Below, one piece after another: positions 19,401 through 46,353 of a stretch of DNA of 64,000 nt (position 1 is its first letter; every line of letters begins with the position of its first letter). Under the pieces are notes generated by a model. The model had not been told where the DNA came from and did no database searches. It saw only the letters and a program-made list of their open reading frames with translations. The stretch comes from Sarcocystis neurona (Eukaryota > Apicomplexa > Conoidasida > Eucoccidiorida > Sarcocystidae), in NCBI GenBank assembly GCA_000727475.1, contig KL647291.1:596325-660324 (forward strand), in the 5' to 3' direction. Both the position numbers and the translations under genes were made by a program.

Positions 19401-20818
19401 CACTGCTGCTCGTGCTGTGGGGTCGGTTCGCCTCTTGTTGGACTTGGGGGGACACTTCTCTCCCGCTGCTGCTTTTGACGAGCGTGCAGCAGGCCCGCAG
19501 CCGACCAACTCTCAGGTTTTTATGCCGTCTCTCTCGCTCTAGAAAATTTGTGCCGCAGCGGTGATTGACTCCGTCGTCGTACTCACTTCCGGTAGCACAG
19601 CTGGTACACATGCAACCCCCAGGGGCCCCCCTTGGTTGGCCGCATGACGGCTGTGAAAACCTCTATCGCAGCTTGAACGTTAATACACAGCACTGCACAG
19701 GCGTGCGCGTGTGTAGAGAAAGGGCTGAATTCTCGTAAACGTAGCTTTATACTCTTGGGTAGATGCTCGAGAAGATGAGAGGAGGGTTGCGTACACACGT
19801 AAATATGTATACATATTTACCGCGGTCTTTTCTTGCTCAATGGTAATCTGCGTCAGCAATAATTGAACCCAGCCGCTTCTGGCTTAGTTCGTATGCGTGT
19901 ACGTAGGTACTGCCAGGGGCAGCCCAGTTTCTTCCGTTGCTTGTGTTTATGGTATATGTAACCTCGACACCGCAGTACTGTCCGCTTGGGTAGGTGTGTA
20001 CGTATATGAAATCGTTAAATATAACTATGTGGATATAGTAGCGCCTCTGTGTCTACGCATGTGTGTGTGTATTGATCTGCGCGTATCTTGTTTTCTGCCT
20101 CCATGGATATTGTGGATATATTATATATTTATTATATCATGGCTCGACCGAGCCAGACCACCAGCGCAGCGGAAGAGAAATAGCCCGCAACGGCCGCTGA
20201 CCTATACGCAGAACGAAGGCACTACGGCGGGCGGGACGCGTTTCATGACGTGAGCGTTGTCGCTTTATTTATGGTGTAGCGACATCTGAACAAGTTATGC
20301 GGTAGAGAAAAGGTATGTTTCAGCAACCAGGTCAACCTTCCTCCGTGTAGTTAGTGGATACACAAACACAGTGAGTAGGAGGCGATTTGCAAGTTAGCTT
20401 TTTGATTCCTTTCGTCAATACGTCCACGCACGTCTTCAAAGTGGCAGGTGAGCCTCCGCCTTGCGAGACGTCAAGGCAGCAATCAGTGTTCCACACAAAG
20501 GCACAAGGTAGACAGCAGGAACAAGTTTTCGAAGAGGGACCCCGTTACACTTTGCAGTTCAGCGTGCACCTGTGCGTTCGCGTTGGTGTACGGACACCAG
20601 CGTCTGCACAAAGACACATACGACAAAGTTCCACGCGCGAATCCGTACGCAACTGCGCACCACAGGTCTGGTTCCGTTACCTGCTCGAGAACGGCTTAGT
20701 TGTATTAACGGGAACAACCTCAGTGCACCATATGCAAGACGATTTGCAGAGCCTATCGATCGAATTTTCCCAAGAAGACCGTCATGCAATCGACGAAGAA
20801 ATGGCCGCCTACATTTGA
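13477..20818 (+). CDS. Aldo/keto reductase family oxidoreductase, five exons, complete
   Basis: Exons 13477-13675, 15299-15492, 16295-16543, 18240-18368 and 20666-20818 join in frame (phases 1, 0, 0, 0) with GT-AG introns, giving 307 aa and the stop TGA at 20816. The NADPH-dependent aldo/keto reductase barrel is clear. GFRGVDTA (catalytic Asp) spans the first junction; PKHYNEPGVG carries the Tyr, FIQTKFTP the Lys and DAVLLHSP the His, so the D-Y-K-H tetrad is intact. Then come LLGISNCYDV, LLQNRF and the C-terminal LTGTTSVHHMQDDL loop, which resembles the GTTS-type cofactor loop of fungal and protist members. The ATG at 13477 (A at -3) gives the usual family length; an in-frame ATG at 12940 would add an Ala-rich extension. 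The substrate cannot be read from sequence; small aldehydes or ketones are typical. Introns 1, 3 and 4 carry CAG/CTG blocks. Confidence 0.88.
14161..14925. repeat. Paired CTG block and CAG block (inverted) in aldo/keto reductase intron 1
   Basis: Plus-strand CTG-type imperfect repeats occupy about 14161-14447 and CAG-type repeats about 14570-14925. The two halves are complementary in type and could pair. Both lie wholly within intron 1 (13676-15298), so they are not homopolymer-coding sequence of this gene. Confidence 0.7.
16550..17190. repeat. CAG-type triplet block at the 5' part of aldo/keto reductase intron 3
   Basis: Imperfect AGCAGCAG/GCAACAG repeats begin within about 20 bp of the exon 3 donor (16543|GTCAGA) and fade near 17190. 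All plus frames contain stops, and the flanking exons join without it, so it is intronic. Confidence 0.75.
18090..19510. repeat. CTG-type triplet block around aldo/keto reductase exon 4
   Basis: CTGCTGCT-type imperfect repeats run up to the exon 4 acceptor (GCGCAG|GTTCG at 18240) and resume after the exon to about 19510. They are of opposite sense to the CAG block at the start of the same intron. Confidence 0.75.
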
Positions 20819-24050: not shown

Positions 24051-25444
24051 TCATATAAAGGAAGAACTTTTACTTCTTTTCTTCTGGCGTAGTAATCTTT
24101 CTAACGTGATTACCGGCCGCCTCTGGCGGGTGCTATTCATTTGTTCACTTAACCATGTGCTCGCTGCGACCAGAGCAGTACTTTCTCTTAGTTCTTGCAG
24201 TTTCGGAAACTCGTACTCTTGCCCACTTGTCCGCTGGGCAGTACTACTGATGTTGTCGTCCTCGTCCTGTGTCGCCTCTTGGTTTCTCTTCTTTCCCCTA
24301 CCCTGGTGGGGACAATCCAATGACTTCCGTATAGTTCGCAGTATTTGACGATTCTTCGCATCTGCCACGCGCCACAGACAGCCCACAATTTCCCGCAAGA
24401 CACGCAGATTTACATGTATGTATGTACTCGTGTGAGTGCATGTACCGGGAACGACGAACACGAACTGTCAGAAAGGCGCAGGTAACGGAGTCATGCTTTT
24501 TAATACGCTACTGTTCGTAGCGACCACCCCGTCGACTTCTAACATGGGATCCTGTGCCGTGCGTCCTACGTAGCAAGAGAGGACTACGCTGACATTTGTT
24601 GTACGAAATTCGCTACCTCCAAGTTTCTCTATGACAAGTGAACTTCGGGCATACTGCGACCTCTTGAGTTTCTGCGCATAATAGTATGCGGGATACTATT
24701 ATCCCGGATACTGTATCCAGTTTTGCATACGTTAACAAAAACGGAATTTTCGATGGCAGCACCGCGTGAATTCGAGGAGATGCTCCTTCAACGCAGAAGC
24801 AGAAATGCCGACTTACATGCAAGCAAACCCTCGATCCCATGGGATTGTGGTCTCTTACCTTTCCAAAATGTCACGCTGAGAAGTTTTGACCTTAAATTCC
24901 TTTGTTCGGGTTTCTTTTTGCTCTTTAAGGTCTCTCTTCCGTCCACTTTAGGGCACAGCCGCTTCGACGCCACTACACTTGTGGAAAATGCGGCAGCCGC
25001 TTGTCCGCTGTTTTTACGACTGCCGCCTTGCTGTCCGTCCCTGTCTTTGACGGACAAAGCTGACGGCTTAGTGGTCGACGTGGTAGCCAGACTATCAGGA
25101 ACACTAGCACAGCTCGTTTTACCTCCGGGCGCGTGTGTTTCATCAACATCTTCGGGCCATTCAGGAAGCGTGGGAGGCAGCTGCCGAAGTAGAGGCTGAC
25201 GGCGGTGGAACGTTGCACCAGCTGCATTGTCAACTCCCAAGTTCCTCCCTTTCCGCTTCACCTGACTCGGGGTGAAACTTTTGGCTGACGCTCGCACGTC
25301 TTTCTTTGCCGTGGAACAAGGATTAACATTGGTTCTGCCGCTTGTGCTTACTTTGGCCACCGCGTGGTCAACACTTGTAAACCCTTTGTGCATCTGTGCA
25401 ACTGCCGGCTGTACGTTTCGGCTGGAAAGTCTCTTCTTAGACAT
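24051..25444 (-). CDS. Unknown Lys/Ser-rich protein, two exons, 312 aa
   Basis: Exon 1 runs from an ATG at 25444 (A at -3) to a consensus donor GCAT|GTAAGT at 24817 (phase 1). Exon 2 starts after GTGGCAG at 24361 and ends with TGA at 24051, entering in the matching phase, so a 455 bp GT-AG intron gives one 312-residue frame. I recognise no family. The protein is hydrophilic with no signal peptide or membrane segment. It begins MSKKRLSSRN, is rich in Lys, Arg, Ser and Thr, has basic clusters (PSQVKRKGRN, GRGKKRNQ, RQKKRSKSSS) and a helical acidic/Leu stretch (EYEFPKLQELRESTAL) near the C-terminus. Such composition is common in nuclear or chromatin proteins, but that is inference. Support is the phase-matched splice pair and the two long open exons in repeat-poor DNA. 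Confidence 0.55.
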
Positions 25445-27476: not shown

Positions 27477-28076
27477 TCACTCTTCCGTGGACAGCCGTTT
27501 TAGAAACCGGCCTAGGCCGAAGCCGTAGCCACCATAAGGATATCCCCAACCTCCGTAGGGGTAGCCGTAGCCGTAACCGTAACCGTAGTTAGGATATCCC
27601 CCACCCCAGAAGCCCCATCCCATGCTAGCGCGGCGTTTGCTCACGTCTGCCGCGGCAACTCTTTCCATTGCGCGCTGTTCGGCTTCTTCCATCATTTCCT
27701 CTTCCATTTGTGCCACGGCTTCCTCGGATGACTTCTCGCTCTGCAGCAAACAGTGCACAATGCATGGTTACAAGCAGAGGATGAAACCTCGTCACATCAG
27801 TCTGAGAAACACGCAACTACTTCGGCTAAATGCCCCTCATGTGTTTAATTCAAGCACGCTAATGGGCCACCAAATTCGCTGATGTGTCGCCTGTCCAAGA
27901 TTTGTAGAGGTGGGATGATTTGCGCACCTGTTCTTATTACCGTCGTGGAAACTACTCTAGTACAGCAACAGCAGATGACAGGTTTTTTTTTCACCCACCG
28001 GTCTCGCAGCGTGCGCAGTCGTCACACTCATGACGACAGCTGCTAGAAGAGCAAGAAGGAGCTGCAACAGTTTCAT
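27477..28076 (-). CDS. Small secreted Gly/Tyr/Trp-rich protein, copy 1 (113 aa, two exons)
   Basis: Exon 1 (27999-28076, 26 codons) encodes a textbook signal peptide, MKLLQLLLALLAAVVMSV, ending in THAARP with a likely cleavage after AHA. The donor is CCG|GTGGGT and the acceptor TGCTGCAG|AGC, both phase 0. Exon 2 (27477-27740) encodes the rest. It starts with an acidic Glu/Met/Ala helix-like segment (AQMEEEMMEEAEQRAME), then a basic site (VSKRRAS). Next comes a tail of about 45 residues made almost only of Gly, Tyr, Trp, Pro and Phe, with ten Tyr (YPNYGYGYG, GGWGYPYGG), ending GLGRFLKRLSTEE. No cysteine occurs in the mature part. Function is not known to me. Tyr/Gly-rich secreted proteins in coccidia include oocyst-wall precursors that cross-link through dityrosine, so a structural role is a reasonable inference. 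A paralogue with the same exon plan lies at 31263-31808. Confidence 0.82.
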
Positions 28077-31000
28077 TTTGATTTTCTCAATGCGCGACGA
28101 GGGAAGGAAGCGCGCAGTCGACACTTGTTTTAGGGAACTGACTTGATGAAGAAGGAAAAAGTAGTTGTGGCAGACGTAGGAGCAAACCTCACTCTCCCAC
28201 CACCGTATGGAGCGGCGGGCCTCATTCAGCGACTTTCAGATGGGCACTCAAGCGACATACGTTGACTAGCCACTTTTTTGGATAGTGATCTCTTATCACC
28301 TTACGCTTCTCAGTCTGTTCCACGCAATTACTGGTGCAGCGTCCTTTCTGAAACAACTGCTTCTATGTTTTGCACCCAACTAACTTGGCTTTTCAACCCT
28401 TCCCACTCCGCACGCCAGAGACTCGCGCAGAAATCGGCGTTTCCTTTTCTGGTAAGCAACGAAGTTGCCAGCCCTGAAGAAATTACTCCGCTCTGAAAGT
28501 ACTCGGACTGCATCTCCTCGGCCGCGACTACGCCAAGATTCACACAGCTATCTTGCAGCCAAGCAACCAGCTCGTCAAGAAATTTCGACGCTTGGAGTTT
28601 CGTACACCAGCACATACGCGAGCGCTGAATAATAAGGCTTAGTCGCTTGCTGCAAGCCGACGTAAGAGACGGCCTGATGGCCCTAATTCAGCTATGACTC
28701 CAAGAGCATTTTGCATTACAACATCCAAAGCTCACCACAAAACCTTGGTCGCGTCTTTCCAACCTCACAGAGCATCTTTCGCCCGTGCGTATTACGCAAC
28801 GAAATGTAACACATTAACTATCGCCTTCAGACCTGAAACGTTATGCACTGCTACATGACTCGCAGCAACACTGCAGCTGTTCCCGGTCTTAAGGGCCACA
28901 TCTCACAGGGTGGAAATAATAAAAGCAGACAAATATTGAAAAAGTCAAGTCGCAAGGAAGTTCAGGTGTTTATAGTGCGAGAAAACAGAGCATATCAGTC
29001 GTGCGACCCCTACGGCAAGCAAAGAGCTCTCTCGTCGCTCAACTACAGACGTGCCTGTAGATCGCTGCGATGCAGATTTCGGGAAGACCACAGGAGTACG
29101 ACCCGCAGCACACCAAGGAAGGGACGCACGCAGATCTGGCACAATAATCTGTTCAGATAAAAATCTGAAAGAGAAATAGCTTGAGGTTTGACTCCACTAC
29201 TGACATGAGGCAATCCCAAAAAATCCCTCGCTGCAACCCATCCACCCGAAATACACACATTTCAGCTTCTGGAACTTTGCTTCGAGTCTGGAGACGCTGA
29301 CGGGGGTGGTATGTAAGACGGTTTCTTCACAGATTAGCAGGACGAATTGACTCTACATTACAGTCAACCGTGTGCTCACTGCACAGAGCACGACTCCCAG
29401 CCTTCGCCAATCTCCTTCGATGACTGCTTAAGTCGCCCTCGCCAAAGGATACCCGTTATGTTTTAACATGGTATTCCCTCAATTATGCGCATGGTGAGCC
29501 TCGCCGTCGCTGTCTGCTTCGTCCCTCGATAGTGGCAACGGGGCTCACACACTGGCAGTAAACAGGGTAGCTCGTTACTACTAGCATTAAGACCACGATA
29601 CAGCACATAAATGGAAGCGACGCGACAAGACCGACGTGTTTCACCAGTAACTTCCCAAAGTGTCTTTACCTGCTGACATTAACCATTTACACGGTATTGG
29701 GAAGCGCTCCAATTGATACTAAAGCGGGTCTTCCTCAGGGATGTTGCTGACACGACGAACAGGAGACAGCCTACACCCACTAACACGGATATACGTCAAC
29801 GGTAGGAGGTGGGCAAACGGTGAACATTTTCGACCTGTGTCCAGCGGACGACCACGGCTTCCTTAGAGATACATGAAACTGTAAGCAGCAGCATCACGCA
29901 CGCCGCTCACGTGGTCCGACTCAGGGGGAACCCTTCGCATGCTGAATTCGGGCTGTGGCGATTTGGCATATGTTTACATATAGATGTATATGTATATACA
30001 CACTACTACGGCAGTAGAGAGGTTTTCGCACTTTGTTCAGCAACAAGAGTCTCGTAATTTGTGTTAGTGTCGTAGCAGGCCCCTAAGTGAGACTATGCTG
30101 ATGTATACCTGCATCGGTTTTTGCGAGAAGCAGTGCCAACCAGCAAGAAACGCCTCGTCAGTCACGGATAATCTCAAGCAGTGCGCGGTTAGAGCCGCCT
30201 ACAGCTGCAGGGGTGACAGAGTATGCACTGACATTTACTGCGGTAACAATTTGTCTTATTTTGAGAACGAAGGTCTGAGGGCGTTCCATTGATGACAGCA
30301 GAGATCCCTTCGTATGCTTTATTCAGCGACTGGAGTCCGGTGCTTCACGACACAGGGGAGCCCGCTGGAGTACTTATGCATCCAACTATCCAAAAAACAA
30401 TGACAATTGCCAAGGAGGACCTGCGTCGATCCTTGACAAGCAGTGGCGTCAAACTGTAAAACGCATTAAGTGCATGTCGGATTACTACAGCTTTTGTTGC
30501 CTGCAGGGAGACTTGCTACGCCGTCCGCTACGTACCTCTGATCAGACACCACATGGTCTTGTGTGTGCACTCACTAGTTACACGCCACCACGTCCAATAA
30601 CGTAGCTTGGCTCAGTGAACAAGGTGAAATGTCCACTTCTTAGACCCCGAAACCGTGAACAGGCCACAAAAAACGGCGCACTTATGTGGTGCAGATATTG
30701 TCTCTTGCCACTACGGCCTGCTGCACATCTTGCAATTATGTGTAGATTGGGGGGCACCTCCCAGTAGTTTGGCAGCAGAATGTTCTATGAAGTGGCTTGC
30801 AGGCCAGTAGACTTACACAGGTGGGTGACAAAACGTTGACTTTTTACGTAGCTTTTCAGGTGAGGTAAGGTACGCAACGTACTCGCGCGCTTCCTTGTGA
30901 GTGCCTTTATGCGTCCAACCTGTGTGACAGATGATGCTGTGGACACAAGAGTGTCACAAGAGATGCTGTCGAGAAGTGATCCCATCGTAGATCGAACCAC

Positions 31001-31262
31001 GACGCTCCTTCGGAAGCAGTCAACTGTATTAATGGAATTCGTATGTCTCTAAGGGCTCACAAATATAAGGTACTACAAATGACACTCCACTGCAAGCAAG
31101 TCTCAGTAGCGAGGTACCGGACACCGATATAGGAATGTCTTAACATTTGCCAGTCAATTCAGTGATTGAGGAGTACAAAGCCTGTGCGTGGCGAAGGCAA
31201 GGTTCACGACAACCAGGTCACTACTTACAATGCGAACTGTTTTCCAGCATTTCCACAAAGAT
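28077..31262. other. Intergenic stretch between two secreted-protein genes
   Basis: Repeat-poor except for a short TA run near 29975-30000. It holds the 95-codon minus frame listed separately and other short open frames on both strands, but no splice chains or domains I can support. Promoters of copy 1 should lie just above 28076; no defined element is visible. Confidence 0.4.
28328..28615 (-). CDS. Unassigned ORF, 95 aa, upstream of secreted-protein copy 1
   Basis: An ATG-started frame on the same strand, 250 bp upstream of copy 1. The product is mildly acidic with a natural-looking amphipathic stretch (KFLDELVAWLQDS, VVAAEEMQSEYFQ) and no signal peptide. I do not recognise it. It could be a small gene, an exon, or a remnant of an older element. 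No splice partner was found. Confidence 0.25.
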   Translation of the reverse strand: MCWCTKLQASKFLDELVAWLQDSCVNLGVVAAEEMQSEYFQSGVISSGLATSLLTRKGNADFCASLWRAEWEGLKSQVSWVQNIEAVVSERTLHQ

Positions 31263-31808
31263 TTACTGCCTCCTGAGGAAACGTCCGTAACCGAGGCCGC
31301 CATAAGGCCAGCCCCAGCCTCCATAGTAACCATAGCCATAGTAAGGATATCCCCAGCCACCATAGCCACCCCAGCCGCCGCCCCAACCACCACGGCCACC
31401 CCAGCCGCCGCCCCAGCCACCGCCCCAGCCACCACGGCGACGGCCCATTTTTCTGCTTTCGCTTCTTGCTTCGTGGTCGGACTCCATGCTCTCCATCGCC
31501 TCGCTGCTGGCTTCCTCTTCTTCCATGTGTGGTCTCATCTCTTCGGTATCCATCTTCTGTGAACACAGGAGAGAAGAAGTAATCAGATTGGTGTACCCAC
31601 ATTTTCGACACTGGAATCCTCCGCAAACATTGGATTTCAAGATCTTTGTGGGGAGGTGTACAGCGTACTTACTGTACAGGCCCTACGTCTCCTGTTGTGG
31701 CACCACTGGCACGACGATTGTACAACTTACCCGCTTCTCAGCTTGTGCAGTTGCAAGTGACATTGCAACTAGTGCAAGAAGAATCAAAAGTTTCCTTGTG
31801 ATATTCAT
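31263..31808 (-). CDS. Small secreted Gly/Trp/Tyr-rich protein, copy 2 (123 aa, two exons)
   Basis: Exon 1 (31731-31808) has exactly 26 codons, as in copy 1, and encodes the signal peptide MNITRKLLILLALVAMSL ending in ATAQAEKR. The donor CGG|GTAAGT and acceptor TTCACAG|AAG are both phase 0. Exon 2 (31263-31556) encodes an acidic Glu/Met/Ser segment (RPHMEEEEASSEAMESME), a basic site (RSESRKMGRRR), then a tail of WGGG-type repeats with eight Trp, followed by GGWGYPYYGYGYYGGWG and PYGGLGYGRFLRRQ-stop. The order signal, acidic segment, basic site, aromatic Gly tail, GRFL[KR]R end is shared with copy 1. The signal peptides also align (LLxLLAxVxMSxxTA), so the two are paralogues. The tail has expanded by WGGG repeats here and by YG repeats in copy 1. 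Extracellular structural or wall material is inferred. Confidence 0.82.
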
Positions 31809-33937
31809 TCTGAAAACTGCTCTTTGAATGATTGGGGAGGCAGAAAGGGAGAGGAACTCGAGGGAAGTCAGTTTGATTTGGAGAAAAAAAAATCTGACTC
31901 GCAGTCGTAACACTGTTCGGTGGCTAACACCCAGTGAAAAGCCACGACGCTGATCCCAAGGCCCAAGACAGGTCTCTGCGCGAGCTGACGAGCCGCGGAG
32001 GCGCTAGCTGAATACACTAGAACATCAATGCCAGGTGCTGGCTAGAAGTATTTCTACTCAAATTCTGGTAAAGTGCATGTTGGTCTTTCCAGGATCTAGT
32101 GCGCTGGGCTGGCTCAACAGTCGCGTCAGTGGGCTGGCTAGCGAGACCATTTGTGGCAGAATGCGCTCAAACCAACGTGAGATTCATAAGCGTACAATCG
32201 ACGCTGCTGCCCAGTATTATATGATTGTTTTCCCCGAAAAGTCAAGCGCTGCGCTGGCCCAGCTGTACCGTCAGTGGAATGACTAACGAGACTGTTTGTG
32301 GACCGGATGCATTCAATAGTTATGATATGTACAGGTGCATCTGGTGCCCACGACACGATGCGACTCGCCAGTCATATACCACCGCTCAGTCGCACATTTT
32401 TAGTCGAGCTGCTATGCAGCACAAAGGCAGTGAATCTCTCTCCACAGGGAATGCATCATCAGAGAGATGTTTATGATTGCACCTGTAGGGCAGCACGGGT
32501 GGGTGAGGGATCAGTGAGGGGGAGACATGCAGGAAAGTGCTTATCACTGTTTCCATAGTCTCGTAATGGAAGTTCTGTCGCGTCACACGGCCCACGACTG
32601 CGTTCGCTCGTCACTTCTACCCGGCTACTGAAGTTCCTGCTTTTCAACAAGTGGTGCTTACCTGCTGGTAATACAGACTTGTGTGGGTTAGCTGCTGTAG
32701 AATCCGCTGGATCTATAGCTCCAAGCGATCGCTTATATGGAATAAGTACCCCCAACGCAGGACAAGCGCCAACAGCGTAGGCTCGTATGTGCAGACACAG
32801 TGTCTTCCACCTGCGACCGATGCCACCAATTCGACGACGATTGACGCCACAGAAGTACGCGATGACCTCTCAGCTGCTCGGTCGCCACCTACACGCAACG
32901 GCAGTGTTAAAAACCCGGTATTACATTGCCGAACTAGCTTGGTGGCAGTCTGAATTTGCTAGTACAGGTTGTCACAACAGCTCGTTTGTGCGTTTCGTTG
33001 CCGTTTGCTCGCACGAGCGTGATGAAGGCAGCATCCGAGCTAAGGATATTTGTGAACACCGGCGGTTGCAAGTAGGCCGCTGTAGTTCTGCGTCTGTGCA
33101 ACACTTGATCAAGATCAACGGCGGAGCCTGACAGATCTTGTGAAGTTGCGTATTGAATGTTGTGCCATCCAGCAAGAAGACACCTATCAACCATTGGCTC
33201 TGCTGTCTAGCATGCAGAGAGCTGATGCTCTACTAAGACAATTCTGCTTCACCTCTATGGCTGCTGGTCTCAATCTTTTCTTCTGCTGCGTGTAGCGTCT
33301 TTACTCGAGGATGGCGGGTCTTGCTGCACTTGGTATTCCTGGACAGAAGCAAGAGGTTTGTTGCTCAGGCAGAACGTTCTCTTCAAGGTCCTGCGTCCCT
33401 GTGTTTCTTTTGTAACGTGTTTTCTGCAACACCAGGAAGTGGGCTGTCCCTCTTGGACCAAAACATGTTTGTTGTGGGATGTGTTCTGTATACGAACTGG
33501 CTGTATGCTCGCAAGGGGGGTGAAGTCTTCACAGAAGGAACAGTTCAGAGTATTCAACTAGTGCTTCTTCGCATTGTCAATCCAGTGTGTCACTTCCAGG
33601 CAGAAACACCTCGGTGGCGAAAGCCACGGTTAGTAAACCTGCACAAAGGTGCAAAGGGGTTGCGTTCAGGTTTCGCTCTTGGTACAAACGAGGACAACAC
33701 GCGAAGTCACTAGTGCAGAAATAATACGAGAACTTTTGACAAGGCCTTCCGTAGCACTAGATGCGCGCCCATTACCTGCGCAAGTTAAGAGTCGTAAGAA
33801 CGAAGTTTTAGCATGTTACCGAATTCAGCTTTGTCGGCTGGAAAATTGCGACACGGCCGCCAACACTGATGTGAGTGCGACAGCTCTATGTATATATCTC
33901 TCTCTAGAAATGGTCTGCAGCAGTCCACGATCTGAAT
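31809..33937. other. Intergenic stretch with a diverged tandem duplication
   Basis: Repeat-poor sequence between copies 2 and 3. The only structure I see is a diverged duplication at about 32087-32310 (listed separately). The plus frame 33321-33713 is open for 130 codons but has no motif and overlaps the likely 3' UTR of the gene at 33938. Confidence 0.4.
32095..32310. repeat. Diverged tandem duplication, unit about 138 bp
   Basis: The segment GTCAGTGGGCTGGCTAGCGA near 32126 recurs as GTCAGTGGAATGACTAACGA near 32270, each followed by GAC..TTTGTGG. The surrounding GCGCTG(G)GC(T)GGC(T)CA sequence also recurs. Copies differ at many sites, so the event is old. Confidence 0.55.
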
Positions 33938-34430
33938 TCAGGTGGACTGGACAGCTTCAAGCAGGGTCTCAGTTGCTTCTTTCACGTGTTGTTCAACCCC
34001 GGGCACCTCGTGCAGCGGAGGCTCTCGGGCACTCCGCAGAATGTCCTCAACCTCCTGTTCGCTGGGTATCATTTGACGGTTGAAATGGCTCTCGTCCACC
34101 TGTGCAGCTCACATTTCACAAGTGTGCATTAAAGTGAGTTTGGTGATTTCTTCTAGGGTGGCCGTGGACGCGTAGGACCTGACGTCTTGTTGACGAAGAC
34201 ACTCTTGTACTGTGCGCGGCTCATGTGTGCTGCTGCTTGGTAACCTTGCTTTTGGCGAAAGCGAGAAGCCTCAGTATCTCCACGGCAGAACCGCCCTAAA
34301 CTTGCGGTAGGTGACGATTGCTAGCTCATACAAAAGGCACGAAAAGCCAGCTTACCACTTGACCTGCTGCCATCGACCAGCACGCCGCTAGCACGACAGC
34401 GAAACCCAACAAAGCTTTCGAGCATTCCAT
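33938..34430 (-). CDS. Small secreted protein, third gene with the same exon plan (78 aa)
   Basis: Exon 1 (34356-34430, 25 codons) encodes a signal peptide, MECSKALLGFAVVLAAC then WSMAAGQV. The donor GTG|GTAAGC and acceptor CTGCACAG|GTG are phase 0, as in the two Gly-rich copies. Exon 2 (33938-34099) gives 53 acidic, helix-prone residues (SEQEVEDILRSAREPP, HVKEATETLLEAVQST) and TGA. There is no Gly/Tyr/Trp tail. It may be a member that keeps only the acidic half, or an unrelated small secreted gene that happens to share the exon plan; sequence identity to the others outside general composition is weak. Support is the signal peptide, clean splice sites and matching phase. Confidence 0.6.
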
Positions 34431-35110
34431 GTTGCAGGTGTGAGGGAGCTTGCAACAGGCGTCCGCGTATATCTTGAACTCCTTTTGGCTCAAAAAGCAG
34501 AAACTCTCCGTAGTCTCAGCAGCCACCTCCCGCTAATATTAGCAGCGTCTGGTTTCTCCTTCAATTGTGACCGATTTTTTTCATTGCGCAGGGCCGCAGA
34601 TAGCTCGATCGATCGGCACGTGCTCTGCGGGATCCAGTGTTCTACACGGGCCACGTGGTCACGGTTACGTTGTCTATGTCGCTAGCTGCGTTTAGCAACT
34701 CTCTTGACTGAATGCACCTCAACTGTCTGTCGAAATTACATCGAAGCAGGACAGTTTTCTGGTTTCCCGGTACACCGCCAAAATCAGCTGATAAATATTC
34801 GTAAGATCTTTTCTCTCGTTGACTTCCCGCTGTGCCGACTGAGTACCCGAAATTTCCTGAAAGATGTAAAGTCGTGCCTAGGAACCTACTGTCACAATGT
34901 AACCAAGCACCACGGCCTCTAATAGAACTGAAATTTCATTCAGGCACCTCTTTGAAAATAGGGGTTTTTTACGAAATACGCACTTGCATGAATTCTGCAG
35001 CAGCATGCCATTCCAGGGCATTTCTGTTTGTATTCGTGTTGTAGATGCACAGTACACGCTCCGGCCCGACCAGACAAGTTCCGGGTTGCGCGCGTTGGCA
35101 AAGGTGCACG

Positions 35111-35244
35111 GATGAGTAGCTTTTGGGCGGAGCACGATGGGACATACAGCTACATGCGTAACAGTACGGTGAACACGGATGAGTAGCTTTGGGGCAGAGC
35201 ACGATGGGACATACAGCTACATGCGTAACAGTACGCTGAACACG
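35111..35244. repeat. Recent tandem duplication, 67 bp unit, two copies
   Basis: Two adjacent 67 bp copies (35111-35177 and 35178-35244) start GATGAGTAGCTTT and differ at three positions only. High identity points to a recent event. Confidence 0.95.
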
Positions 35245-35380
35245 GTCAAGATAAGACGCCTACCTGTACAGACCTCCGCAGTGTGCTCTACCACCGTTTG
35301 AAGTCTGCTGCGTTGGTAGTTGAAAGCGTGGCGGTGCTCCGGAGAGGGATAATTGAGGTTGCGCGACCACTTTGTACTTT

Positions 35381-40900: not shown

Positions 40901-43900
40901 AACGAGTAACCCTCTCCTCCCCTCCCCGTCGCTTTTCTTCTTTCTGCATTCCCTACAGACATTAACATATATACGCCGGCCGCGATGCAGTACTCGCAAG
41001 AGACGCGGCATTTCTGAAAATGAGAGAGACCCTCCCCTCCCCTACCCGTCGCTCTCCCTCTCACTTCACCCACGCGGAGACGTGAATACATATACGGCTG
41101 CTGTGACGCAGTACTCACTTTGCTAGCCCCTGGTCTACGAACCTCAAACACTCACCCACACACATTCACATACACATACAGACGGTAACTTCTTCGCTTT
41201 TCATGAGCTGTGTCCTCTGCGTCCCTGCCGATGTAGTTGGACCCACCTAGAATCCCTTGCCCTCCTCCTCTACGCAGACGTAGCTCTGCAGATATACAGA
41301 AGGTCTAGGGAGCTTCACACACACACCCACACACAAGTACTTCTACGTGTATACAAATACGCCCTTGCAAGTGGCTCTTTTTTCGACTTTTGAGAACGGA
41401 GGTCCTTCGTGTCCCTCCGGCATACACAGATGAAACTCCCTTTTTTCCTCCTGTACACAGAAAGGTGGCCCCTGCACGTGTCCCTGCGGAAGCAAACTTA
41501 CGCTGTAAACTATTTGGACGGCATCTTCGCTGCTGATGAACTCCCATACGCCATCGCTCGCCAAAATCAGAAAAAGGCAACTTCTATCTAAGTCGACCTG
41601 CGGCCAGTTAAACATACATATCGCACCATACAATGTACACATATATATATATATATATCTCACCGATACACACATATACACACATGAGAAGCGGTACGTC
41701 TTTTAATGTACATGTCACCGGTCGCAACAATTGCTTAAAGGCGATTTTTTCTAACGCCCATCTCATAGGTTGAAAGAAGTAGGTATGGATACCCTACTAT
41801 ACCCGCCATGATAAACAGCTTCGCAACAGCGCTTTGCACATATACATATATACACGTACACGCGCAGGTCTATATACGCGCCTCTGCTCAGATATTTACG
41901 TACAAAGAGAGAGGCCACCTGGAGGAAAATGCAACAGAAGAAAATGTAACACTTCTTCTTTCCCTGTGAAAACTCTCCTTCTCTCTCTGTACGTGTAACA
42001 ACAGACACACACAGGCGAGTGGGCTTCCACCGTCAAACCGTCATTTCAACGAGGGAAACATGAAAAAAATGCTCTACAGACACACGCAAGCGTAGAGATA
42101 TTTTTACACGAGGTCGTACAAATAGGATATCTGTTGCAATACACGGACGTATGTGTACGTCTATGAGAGAGAGGCAGTGGAAAGAATATCTTCCACCAGA
42201 GTCCACCAGCAACATATATATATATATGTTCTTTACATTGATATATATATATACACATAGAGTGTACACGACGTACATGTAGATACGGATCTCCCTTGTG
42301 TCTTGTCTTCTATTATCCCTCTTGTACATACATATATATATATATACGTTCTTTACATTGATATCTATATATATATACACACACATAGAGTGTACACGAC
42401 ATAGATATAGATACGGATCTCCCGTCTGTTTTGTCTTGTATTATCCCTCTTGTACTTTGTTCCGCTATGTCTCGCATTCTCTCTGTTTTTCTTTTCCCTC
42501 TCTGTGTCTTTCTCTCGACACATACGGCAGTATGCGTGAATCGTTTTCTCAGTCTCTCTTGCTCTGTCTGTCTGTCTTCCGCCCTACAGAAATGAACATC
42601 TTTTATATTGTCCTTGTTCTCCTTTTTTGTTCGTTTTCCTTTATCTCTCGCCCAGTCACCGGCTCTCGCTTTCTACATTCATCGCAGATCACGGTGTACC
42701 TACCGGTAAGAAAGAAACGGTTGAGACTTCTCGCACACTTTCTTCTTCGCTCTACACAGGAAACTCCCCACTTCCCCCAGAAAGTAATCATTTCTCACGA
42801 TCAGTAAAGAACAGAAAGCAGCAACTTGTCCACTCTGTCTTTAACGCGTGCAGGTATCTACGGACTGCCGCTATAAACACACATACATATATACACGCGG
42901 TTGTCATGTGTGTATGTGTGTGTCCTTTCACGTCCGTCGTTTCTGTATGTACGTATACGTTTATCTATAGAAAGAAATGTACACCTTTGTACGTATGTAT
43001 GTATGGATGTATACACGTTCACACACACATTTATATGTATGTACATATATACGTTGTAGTCGTAAACCGGCCTGTCCTTGCAGCGTTCATGTGTCGATGG
43101 ATTTCCTTTATAAACACATACATATATATATGTATATACGCGGCCACCATGTGTTTTGTGTGTCTACATTCGCGCCTATACTTTCTGTATGTATATGTAC
43201 GTATACCTATGTATCTACACGTATAACTTTGTATGTATGTACATTTATATATATATATACACGTTTACGTACACATATGTACGTACACACATATAAGTTT
43301 AAATTTTTCTCTCTCTAAATAGATATATATATGTATGAGGACAGCAACAACATAGCTACTACGTGCGTACGTAAGTACAACGGTACAGCGCCCCCGGCAG
43401 GAAGACAAACGACCCCACGAAAAAGGAGAGAAATCTACGCCATTCGTCTGTGAAGACACAAAGTAAGAGAAACGTCCCTTTTTCACAAAAAGCAACTGTT
43501 ACCAGAACTTGTGCACCTTCCTCTCGACACATCAATATATCTCTATTTATGTTATGTAGATGTCCAGGTGTATGTATACATACATACATACGTACACCTA
43601 CATAGAGAAAGTGGTACAGGAATGTCTCGCCAGCTGCAGGGGGACACTTTCAAGAAGCAGCGCAGAGTAGTAAAAGCGAGTGTCGAAACTCACCACTTTG
43701 ACGGCAGGCATGCAGGAAACGCCAACTTGGGAACCGATGGTATCGCCGATGGCCCGGCTCATGGCAAGGCCCGGGTAAAGGCGTCCTCGGACGAACAGGC
43801 GATATGGAATATCACTTTCAAGTCGTCGAACTTCTCCTCCTGCGACCCACGACCGAGATCCAGCAGCAGCAGCATTAGCGTGGACACTCCTGCACACCGT

Positions 43901-46353
43901 GCTGCAGCAGCAGCCGCCCCAGCAGGAGCCACGTCAGCAGCAGCCTCCCCGGCAGCAGCCGCCACAGCAGTGGAGAACCTTCCCTCGCAGACGTTGCAGC
44001 ACAGGCAGCACTACCAACAAAAGAAGCCGCGCGTGCCTGCTGTAGCAGCTGCAGGCGCAACAGCAACAGCTGCGGGAGCAGCAGTAGCGGCCGCAGCGGA
44101 GACCATTCGCAGACAGTGGGTGCAGCAGCAGCGGCAGCAACTCTTCCTGGTGGACATCGCAGAAGCAGCAGCAGGTGATATAAAGATGGGCACGCGCGTT
44201 GGACCGACAGCAGCACATGCAGAAGCGACGGCAGTGGACTAAACACCCCCTTGGCAGCAGCAAGCAAAGCCGCTGCAGCAGACACTTTCGCGCAGCAAGA
44301 CGGCTGCTGCAACGTGAACAGTCAGCCACGCCTCTCGCCCACATCAAATCTCCTCAAGGAGGATCCTGCTGCTGCCTCTGCAAAGAATTAAAGGTATTTC
44401 TTTTGATGTACTGCAGCAGCAATCTCGCTCTCTCTACCGGCGTGCGCGCTACGCAGTGACTCCGGCGGAAGGCAATCAAAGGGACGTGCACGCAGGCGCA
44501 GAAGAATACACATATATATATATATATACATACATATATGTAAATGTGTGAACAGGGTTGCTACTATTTTGCCGGTTAAGAGACCTTCGAATGGTTACAT
44601 TCTCGAACGAAAAACGATATATATATATATATATATGTGTATGTACACGTACACAGACAGATACACGTACATCGCGGGAACACGCCGGCAAATACAAATT
44701 ATACCAAATTTTTACGTATATATACATACGTATACATATATATACACGTTTACGTAATTCTGCGTAAGAATGGACCACAAAGTACGTATATTGTCGAATT
44801 CCTGAACACATACATATATATACATACATATTCACTAGACACCCAGCTATACGACGGGAAAATACCATCTACTATATATTCACCTAACTACTAGGAGAAA
44901 GTACCTATTTATTTATCCATACTCTATATCTATACCTATATTTACATCTATATCTATTTGAAAACTATATATGTATGTATATCGCTGGAATACCGAACAA
45001 AGCATACATACACACCCGCACCGCTACGGATATACACATGTACACACGCTTCTGCATATCGCCGGAGCAGAGAGCGCGAAAAAGTAGACATATTACCTCA
45101 CTCCTACGGATATATACATATCCGCATTTATACATACACGAACGTATGTATATACCCCGCACAAACACGTCACCGAACACATGTATTCTTGATTAAAGAA
45201 GCGTATCCACTTATTTATGAACATGTAAATATACATACATACATAATATACATGTGTAGACGTGTCTCACGGAAGGTGGCAACAAAAACAGATATCCTTT
45301 CTACTTACGACGGAGACACAAATATATGTGTGTATGTATTTTCACGTATATTGTCAGAATAGGCCATCACAGAGAAGGTCTATCTGATTAACGCAGATAC
45401 GTAAACGCATACGTACACCCAATTATGTCTTTTGCAGGAATATGCCAGCGAAAAAGTTACCAAATTACATACGAAAGCACGTGCGTGTCTGTGTCTGTGA
45501 GTCTAGCCCCACGTCGAAACGTTTGGCGGCAGGAGAAACTCTTTCAACACACAAAAGTCTAGACACACAGGCTTCTCCACAGAAGAAAGCGGAAGATGCA
45601 CACGTCTACACACATACACAAAAAAAGACAAGGGCACACCCAGACGCATGCACAAATATATATATTCACATGTAAAAACAAGCGGGGAAGCAAACTCGTA
45701 AAACGACAGCCGGGACAGCATCAAAAATTCACACACACGTCTGCATATGTATACACACGTGTATCTGTATACACCTCTATACCTATACACACATATATAT
45801 ATATCTATATGTGTATGTATATGAGAGATGACGTACATATATATATATATATATTCAGACATACAAATATACGAGGGGAGCAAATAGATAAAAACACAGC
45901 TGTGACATCGTCAGAGACACGTACATATATGTACGCATATGTACACAGAATATATATACCTATATCTCCATATATATGTATATAGATAGATATATGTATA
46001 TGCATCTATACACATACATATATATATATGTATAAATGTGGAAACGAGCAGACGCTGAGGTACGCACACAAGAAAAAACATTCTAGCAACAATAGCAGAA
46101 ACTGCACGTACCTTACACAGGTGCAAGTACGTGTATACATATATATAAATATATCTATATAGATAGATAGATGCATACATATTCGCGAGAATATATATAT
46201 GACAATCTACCATATATATATATACCGAGATCTATACACATATTACTACAAATGCAGCTATAGGCACTCGCAAACAAATATGTAAGACACATACGTATAC
46301 ATACATAAATATAAACACCACAAATAAATATATAAGACATGCACATGTGTGCG

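Follow-up and report, generated by a model that had tools for sequence, protein, structure and literature searches.

Two minus-strand genes, hereafter copies 1 and 2, have been identified in a 64,000-nucleotide (nt) stretch of Sarcocystis neurona DNA (contig KL647291.1, positions 596,325 to 660,324; below, the window). Each is predicted to encode a small secreted protein composed of (i) a signal peptide on an exon of its own; (ii) an acidic segment; (iii) a basic site; and (iv) a tail rich in glycine (Gly), tyrosine (Tyr) and tryptophan (Trp). Because their signal exons and tails align far above shuffled sequences, the two genes are, as judged from sequence, tandem paralogues. A third gene with the same anatomy lies on another contig of the genome, C19, and is suggested to be homologous to the pair. 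Tentatively, and with confidence a little short of even, all three are read as encoding secreted precursors of oocyst- or sporocyst-wall material, a reading that relies on composition and layout. The elements of copies 1 and 2 are the following:

27999..28076, minus strand: copy 1 exon 1, predicted signal-peptide exon of 26 codons, ending AHA-ARP, similar to that of copy 2
27741..27998, minus strand: copy 1 intron, phase 0, 258 nt, GTGGGT...TGCTGCAG, with in-frame stops
27477..27740, minus strand: copy 1 exon 2, 87 codons, acidic segment, KRR site and Gly/Tyr/Trp tail, stop after GRFLKRLSTEE
31731..31808, minus strand: copy 2 exon 1, predicted signal-peptide exon of 26 codons, ending AQA-EKR
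31557..31730, minus strand: copy 2 intron, phase 0, 174 nt, GTAAGT...GTTCACAG, with a single in-frame stop
31263..31556, minus strand: copy 2 exon 2, 97 codons, acidic segment, GRRR site and Gly/Trp/Tyr tail, stop after GRFLRRQ
31351..31421, minus strand: tandem repeat of 30 base pairs (bp), 2.4 copies, 90% matches, within the Gly/Trp-rich coding section of the copy 2 tail

Signal exons of 26, 26 and 25 codons, phase-0 GT-AG introns (258, 174 and 256 nt) and a single mature exon had been proposed in the original prediction for these two loci and a neighbouring one, copy 3; all three models were reproduced, as was the succession of acidic segment, KRR or GRRR site and Gly/Tyr/Trp tail in copies 1 and 2. 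The common tail ending put forward for the pair, PYGG[YL]G[FY]G..GRFL[KR]R, stands in so far as both tails are alike, but the pattern does not fit copy 2: PYGGYGF-GL-GRFLKR in copy 1 is opposed to PYGGLGY-GRFLRR in copy 2, with an indel of two residues.

A simple scripted rule predicted signal peptides in both copies, with a hydrophobic core and a small-residue cleavage site. In copy 1 the mature exon begins with an acidic segment of 34 residues (isoelectric point, pI, 4.1), followed by a tail of 53 residues counted from KRR (pI 9.5; 17 Gly, 10 Tyr, 3 Trp). The corresponding parts of copy 2 are 36 residues (pI 4.5) and, counted from MGRRR, 61 residues (pI 10.3; 30 Gly, 9 Tyr, 8 Trp). Both acidic segments are rich in glutamate (Glu) and methionine. 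The exon-2 products, of 9.8 and 10.8 kDa, contain no cysteine (Cys), the tails carry 0-2 lysines (Lys), and Tyr accounts for 10 of 113 residues in copy 1 and 9 of 123 in copy 2. The AlphaFold2 model of copy 1 exon 2, built from two sequences and of low confidence (mean predicted local distance difference test score, pLDDT, 55.8), shows the acidic segment as a helix (ten-residue blocks with pLDDT up to 76) and scores below 50 for residues 44-73; most of the tail is predicted to be disordered.

The relationship of the two copies was assessed against 5,000 shuffles per comparison. The z-score is 7.0 for the signal exons (score reached by 1 shuffle), 6.2 for the tails (reached by none) and 6.8 for signal and acidic part together, whereas the acidic segments by themselves show no likeness (z 0.6). 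The value of 7.0 is inflated, since shuffles lose the hydrophobic order of a signal peptide; the same test on copy 3 still gave only 0.8 and -0.05. At the DNA level, matches between the copies with an expectation value (E) <1e-3 are confined to the tails. Over 35 aligned tail codons there are 28 nucleotide differences, distributed 4/6/18 over positions 1/2/3; 12 codons are identical, 16 synonymous and 7 residue-changing. Protein-guided alignment by itself inflates the third-position share (mean 0.47 in codon-shuffled pairs), and the fraction observed in the tails, 0.64, was attained by 9 of 2,000 such pairs. The 25 aligned signal codons have no third-position bias (10, 9 and 15 differences), and 13 of them change the residue. 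Taken at the level of sequence, copies 1 and 2 are related and probably coding. Within the window and 50 kb on either side (164 kb), the two tails (0.95 and 0.75) are the only 40-residue stretches consisting by more than half of Gly, Tyr and Trp among 2,732 open segments of at least 40 codons; the next-richest stretch (0.45) is another frame of the copy 2 repeat. Nothing else in this region qualified as a Gly/Tyr/Trp-rich open stretch or as a convincing signal-exon model.

The local set had been thought to comprise three genes of one plan. Only copies 1 and 2 proved related; the remaining locus shares neither sequence nor tail with them and has been excluded:

33938..34430, minus strand: copy 3 as proposed, exons 34430-34356 (25 codons) and 34099-33938 (53 codons), phase-0 intron 34355-34100 (256 nt)

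With 5,000 shuffles for each comparison, its signal exon gave z 0.83 and -0.05 against copies 1 and 2, and its mature part z -0.06 and -0.42 against their acidic segments. It has no aromatic tail, and the genome search returned no second copy of it. The proposed acceptor is pyrimidine-poor, and the acceptor rule of the model scan selected 33931 instead. The bare plan, defined as a signal exon, a phase-0 donor, an acceptor and an open exon of at least 45 codons, occurred 0-6 times (mean 2.0) per dinucleotide shuffle of the 164 kb (12 shuffles). The real sequence contains 11 start codons with this plan, exceeding every shuffle, many of them in TA/CA-repeat frames. Since the bare plan also arises in shuffled sequence, a two-exon layout by itself lends little support to copy 3, even if the plan is not entirely at the level of chance. 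A 67-bp unit in about two copies (95% matches) is located upstream of copy 3, at 35107-35245.

The genome (123 Mb in 74 contigs) was searched with the coding exons of the pair. Exon 2 of copy 2 matched itself, copy 1 (E 4e-4) and four further places (E 0.00125, 0.0074, 0.21 and 7.2), the first of which, on contig C19, belongs to a gene of similar construction:

C19:291897-291977: predicted signal exon (signal judged by eye), 27 codons, ending EAQKS
C19:291978-292623: intron, 646 nt, GTACGT donor, strong pyrimidine tract then CTTGGTCAG, phase 0 at both junctions
C19:292624-293346: mature exon, 240 codons, acidic part, LRRLGFF with RRL at the junction, Gly/Tyr/Trp tail

The acidic part of the C19 protein comprises 190 residues rich in aspartate (Asp), Glu and histidine (His), with pI 4.9, or 4.5 for its last 45 residues. 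The tail of 50 residues (pI 9.2; 17 Gly, 8 Tyr, 2 Trp) contains neither Cys nor Lys and ends without the GRFL[KR]R motif. Among 823 open segments in 50 kb it is the only Gly/Tyr/Trp stretch of this kind. The shared anatomy suggests homology with the pair, and because of it the plan is not local to the window. The His content of the C19 acidic part is 18 of 190, and a less acidic, Cys-bearing stretch lies inside the mature exon; this stretch may be an unrecognised second intron. The other three matches were set aside: a Gly/Trp/asparagine repeat running into masked N on contig C1, a Glu- and glutamine (Gln)-rich segment with one Gly run and no Tyr on C8, and a Gln- and Gly-rich segment on C31. 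Exon 2 of copy 1 matched only itself at E 1e-3, joined up to E 10 by two pieces of copy 2, and the signal exons of copies 1 and 2 each matched only themselves in the genome. As the genome protein searches scored 1-9 candidates each, three members is a lower bound, and more dispersed members may well exist.

It is very improbable that these loci have no functional product and are repeat-bearing DNA or decayed duplicates which read by chance as Gly/Tyr/Trp. Such an origin would draw on the 30-bp repeat that forms part of the copy 2 tail and on the occurrence of the bare plan in shuffles; yet the tandem repeat listing of the window shows none in the copy 1 tail, the third-position excess goes beyond codon shuffles, and open frames with GT-AG phase-0 introns right after the signal recur in two loci on different contigs.

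If the three genes do encode wall precursors, the signal exon would send the protein into the secretory pathway, and the acidic part would balance the charge of the basic aromatic tail, keeping it soluble in storage. Cleavage by a protease at the basic junction, which is KRR in copy 1, GRRR in copy 2 and RRL in the C19 protein, would then release the disordered tail, about 45-56 residues long, for deposition in the wall, where oxidative coupling of Tyr, perhaps of Trp too, would cross-link it. The pair's basic GRFL[KR]R end, which is missing from the C19 protein, may serve as another site for processing or docking. Beyond the gene models we infer every step, namely secretion, cleavage, stage, place and cross-linking.

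A wall or sporocyst component had been guessed for these genes in the original prediction. The guess rests on composition and layout and is made plausible by close printed precedents: EtSWP1, GAM56/82 and the small Tyr-rich oocyst proteins of Toxoplasma, which are matched by layout, not by sequence. EtSWP1 of Eimeria tenella (ETH_00000115), compared here by its published description, has a signal peptide, an acidic, disordered stretch rich in Glu and Asp and a basic Tyr-rich stretch; the tagged protein was located in the sporocyst wall, and it has few relatives by sequence (PMC4776368). The same order recurs in the pair and in the C19 protein, where an acidic part (pI 4.1 and 4.5; 4.5 for the last 45 residues in C19) directly precedes a basic Tyr-rich one (9.5 and 10.3; 9.2). 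GAM56/82 likewise carry a signal peptide, with Tyr alternating with serine, Gly or proline between RNMG/RxL and RRL motifs, which are suspected processing sites, and their genes are clustered; they differ from the pair in size (about 50 and 59 kDa in E. nieschulzi) and in a Gln-rich region (PMC5718062).

In Toxoplasma gondii, signal-bearing proteins with more than 5% Tyr have been found in oocyst fractions: TGME49_116550, 081590, 087250 and three others, with 5.5-19.5% Tyr and called small, while BLAST with GAM56/82 had given no compelling homologue (PMC3261165). Compared with this published description, copies 1 and 2, with their predicted signals, lie above 5% Tyr, in contrast to the whole C19 protein (8 of 267 residues). 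By signal and Tyr content the pair would fall among the Tyr-rich wall candidates. The Cys features reported for GAM56 and EtSWP1 are absent: exon 2 of the pair and the C19 tail, all free of Cys, contain neither the CxxC that follows RRL in GAM56 nor the KY-rich region of EtSWP1, whose three Cys include two that flank HGYK.

The genes may instead encode lineage-specific secreted proteins of the vacuole or dense granules, unrelated to walls, in which an acidic part and a disordered tail are separated by an ASP5-type protease; this we consider unlikely, while giving it real weight. The host interface commonly features small, duplicated orphan genes for secreted proteins, and the pair's signal exons diverge fast, with 13 of 25 codons residue-changing. 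In the C19 protein, RRL stands exactly between acidic part and tail, matching the ASP5 cleavage consensus RRLxx of Toxoplasma dense-granule proteins, a site found at a great distance from the signal peptide in MYR1 (PMC4764566). RRL is absent from the junctions of copies 1 and 2 (KRR, GRRR), however, and it is the aromatic tail, and not the acidic part, in which the pair are alike. The Tyr-rich GAM wall proteins, moreover, carry RRL as well (PMC5718062).

An origin as prepropeptides, from which an acidic pro-segment would be removed to leave small cationic Gly/Tyr/Trp-rich peptides acting on microbes or membranes, appears improbable. Such precursors classically consist of a signal, an acidic pro-segment, a basic site and a cationic, Gly-rich mature part in this order; the tails have pI 9.5, 10.3 and 9.2, and nematode YGG-type peptides offer a resemblance. 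In Pfam, two prepropeptide families were matched by copy 2 (E 0.27 and 0.67) and a glycine-rich family by copy 1 (E 0.0014), but all of these fall under the cut-offs; the C19 acidic part of 190 residues is long for a pro-segment, and a literature search for such peptides, not limited to coccidia, yielded no paper.

That no named family has this layout, as had been supposed, holds for all three proteins in Pfam and for the pair in NCBIfam: no match to copies 1 and 2 or the C19 protein lies above a Pfam cut-off, and none to copies 1 and 2 above an NCBIfam cut-off. The nearest entries were TIGR04260 (GrrA/OscA1 cyclophane ribosomally synthesized and post-translationally modified peptides), with 29.5 bits for copy 2 and 24.5 for copy 1 against a cut-off of 31, and the glycine-rich family PF07172, with 19.6 bits for copy 1 against 30. 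The likeness, a leader followed by a Gly-rich stretch with aromatics, is one of composition only, NCBIfam being a library of prokaryotes. A protein-database search with the alignment of both copies gave at least 12 matches at E <=4.7e-3 among 7,978 candidates scored; the 12 listed (two insects, two nematodes, eight without organism name) are all read as likeness of composition. None of those listed was named Eimeria, the length limit excluding GAM-sized proteins: only proteins of 0.55-1.75 times the query length are admitted, so that relatives as long as the C19 protein (267 residues) or the GAMs are left aside. No match was found for residues 1-70 of copy 1 among 46 candidates at E 10, or for residues 84-123 of copy 2 among 744. 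In the PDB, copy 2 matched six chains up to E 1, the best being Sm D1 (E 7.8e-4), which is taken as composition. No Gly/Tyr/Trp-tailed coccidian protein of this layout was found in the literature search, which covered listings and abstract beginnings; in the literature so surveyed, no description was seen of a tail rich in Gly and Trp, of the plan with a separate signal exon or of a GRFL[KR]R end.

Several points weigh against wall precursors. As for the third gene, the whole C19 protein has less than 5% Tyr and four Cys, the tail alone reaching 8 Tyr in 50 residues. Its tail resembles those of the pair with z of 2.0 (reached by 182 of 5,000 shuffles) and 2.8 (49 of 5,000), and its signal exon with z of 1.3 and 0.9. 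As a genome query, the C19 tail returned itself and one place on contig C7 (E 7.1, Gln-rich, with an internal stop), but not copies 1 and 2. ASP5 has RRL as its consensus, so the C19 junction argues for cleavage and not for a wall, and a vacuole protein or a prepropeptide would fit the layout too. The model of copy 1 exon 2 places a low-confidence helix at residues 76-86, the end of the tail. EtSWP1 is unlike the pair in its 224 residues, the lack of a predicted intron and the pairing of Tyr with Lys (PMC4776368). The GAM-like motifs recognised by eye (RASMG...KRL in copy 1, RKMG...LRR in copy 2, RRL before the tail in C19) form a short, post hoc likeness, and the GAM genes are reported to be single-exon or spliced near the 3' end, in contrast to the intron directly after the signal in the pair (PMC5718062). 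Finally, the three protein-database searches with copies 1 and 2 yielded no convincing homologue, wall protein or other, although low complexity, the limit on length and the absence of a coccidian-proteome positive control weaken this negative.

Among the enzymes encoded in the genome are an aromatic amino acid hydroxylase and a protein with a copper amine oxidase domain, kinds that the literature proposes for the Tyr chemistry of the wall. Neither family is wall-specific, and deletion of both aromatic hydroxylases of Toxoplasma left the oocyst autofluorescence intact; Trp products can fluoresce like dityrosine (PMC10128015). A wider picture may be drawn, speculative and improbable as we judge it, in which the three genes belong to dispersed, lineage-specific coccidian wall precursors where Trp joins Tyr. 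An acidic chaperone-like part, short or long, would be cut off at a basic or RRL junction, and the Gly/Tyr/Trp tail would be cured by mixed Tyr/Trp oxidation. Part of the ultraviolet absorption and blue autofluorescence of the wall, usually ascribed to dityrosine, would then come from Trp chemistry.

The oocyst and sporocyst walls give coccidia their environmental resistance. Toxoplasma and Eimeria are described as having Tyr-rich wall proteins that are not related to each other (PMC7389338), a point of interest for the wall chemistry of SRS-bearing coccidia. Compact acidic-basic precursors whose junction is clear-cut would make it easy to model the storage, cutting and curing of wall material with recombinant protein, and the Trp of copy 2 bears on a doubt about the dityrosine account (PMC10128015). 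Should the genes serve another function than the wall, they would be orphan secreted proteins with a processing site of interest.

The genome from which the window comes has 20 matches to PF04092, the SRS/SAG domain, which supports a coccidian origin of the DNA, the setting assumed at the outset. Five of these share a single open frame of 7,628 residues close to a contig start (C4:15764-22528, minus strand), perhaps a very large multi-SRS protein. An Eimeria source finds no support: PF11054, which we take to be the TA4-type antigen family of Eimeria, had no match in this genome, although a true absence does not follow, as none of 14 control genomes gave a match either. The reverse-transcriptase domain RVT_1 (PF00078) was not matched anywhere in the 123 Mb, which is surprising for a coccidian genome of such size; 3 of the 14 control genomes had a match. 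Rfam and tRNA scans of the window gave nothing.

Downstream of copy 1 in the window, at 24788-25444 on the minus strand, is an open frame of 218 codons from ATG, to which Pfam gave no match. The C-terminal part of an aldo/keto reductase is contained in an open frame at 20375-20815 on the plus strand (PF00248, E 0.0028, under the cut-off); a possible earlier exon was seen by eye at about 12.7-13.8 kb, where Pfam gave no match. Two likely exons of a PP2C-type protein phosphatase are located on the minus strand at 43602-43933 (E 0.0041, under the cut-off) and 41346-41702 (E 3.7e-5, over it), and further likely exons of this gene were seen by eye up to about 52.8 kb.

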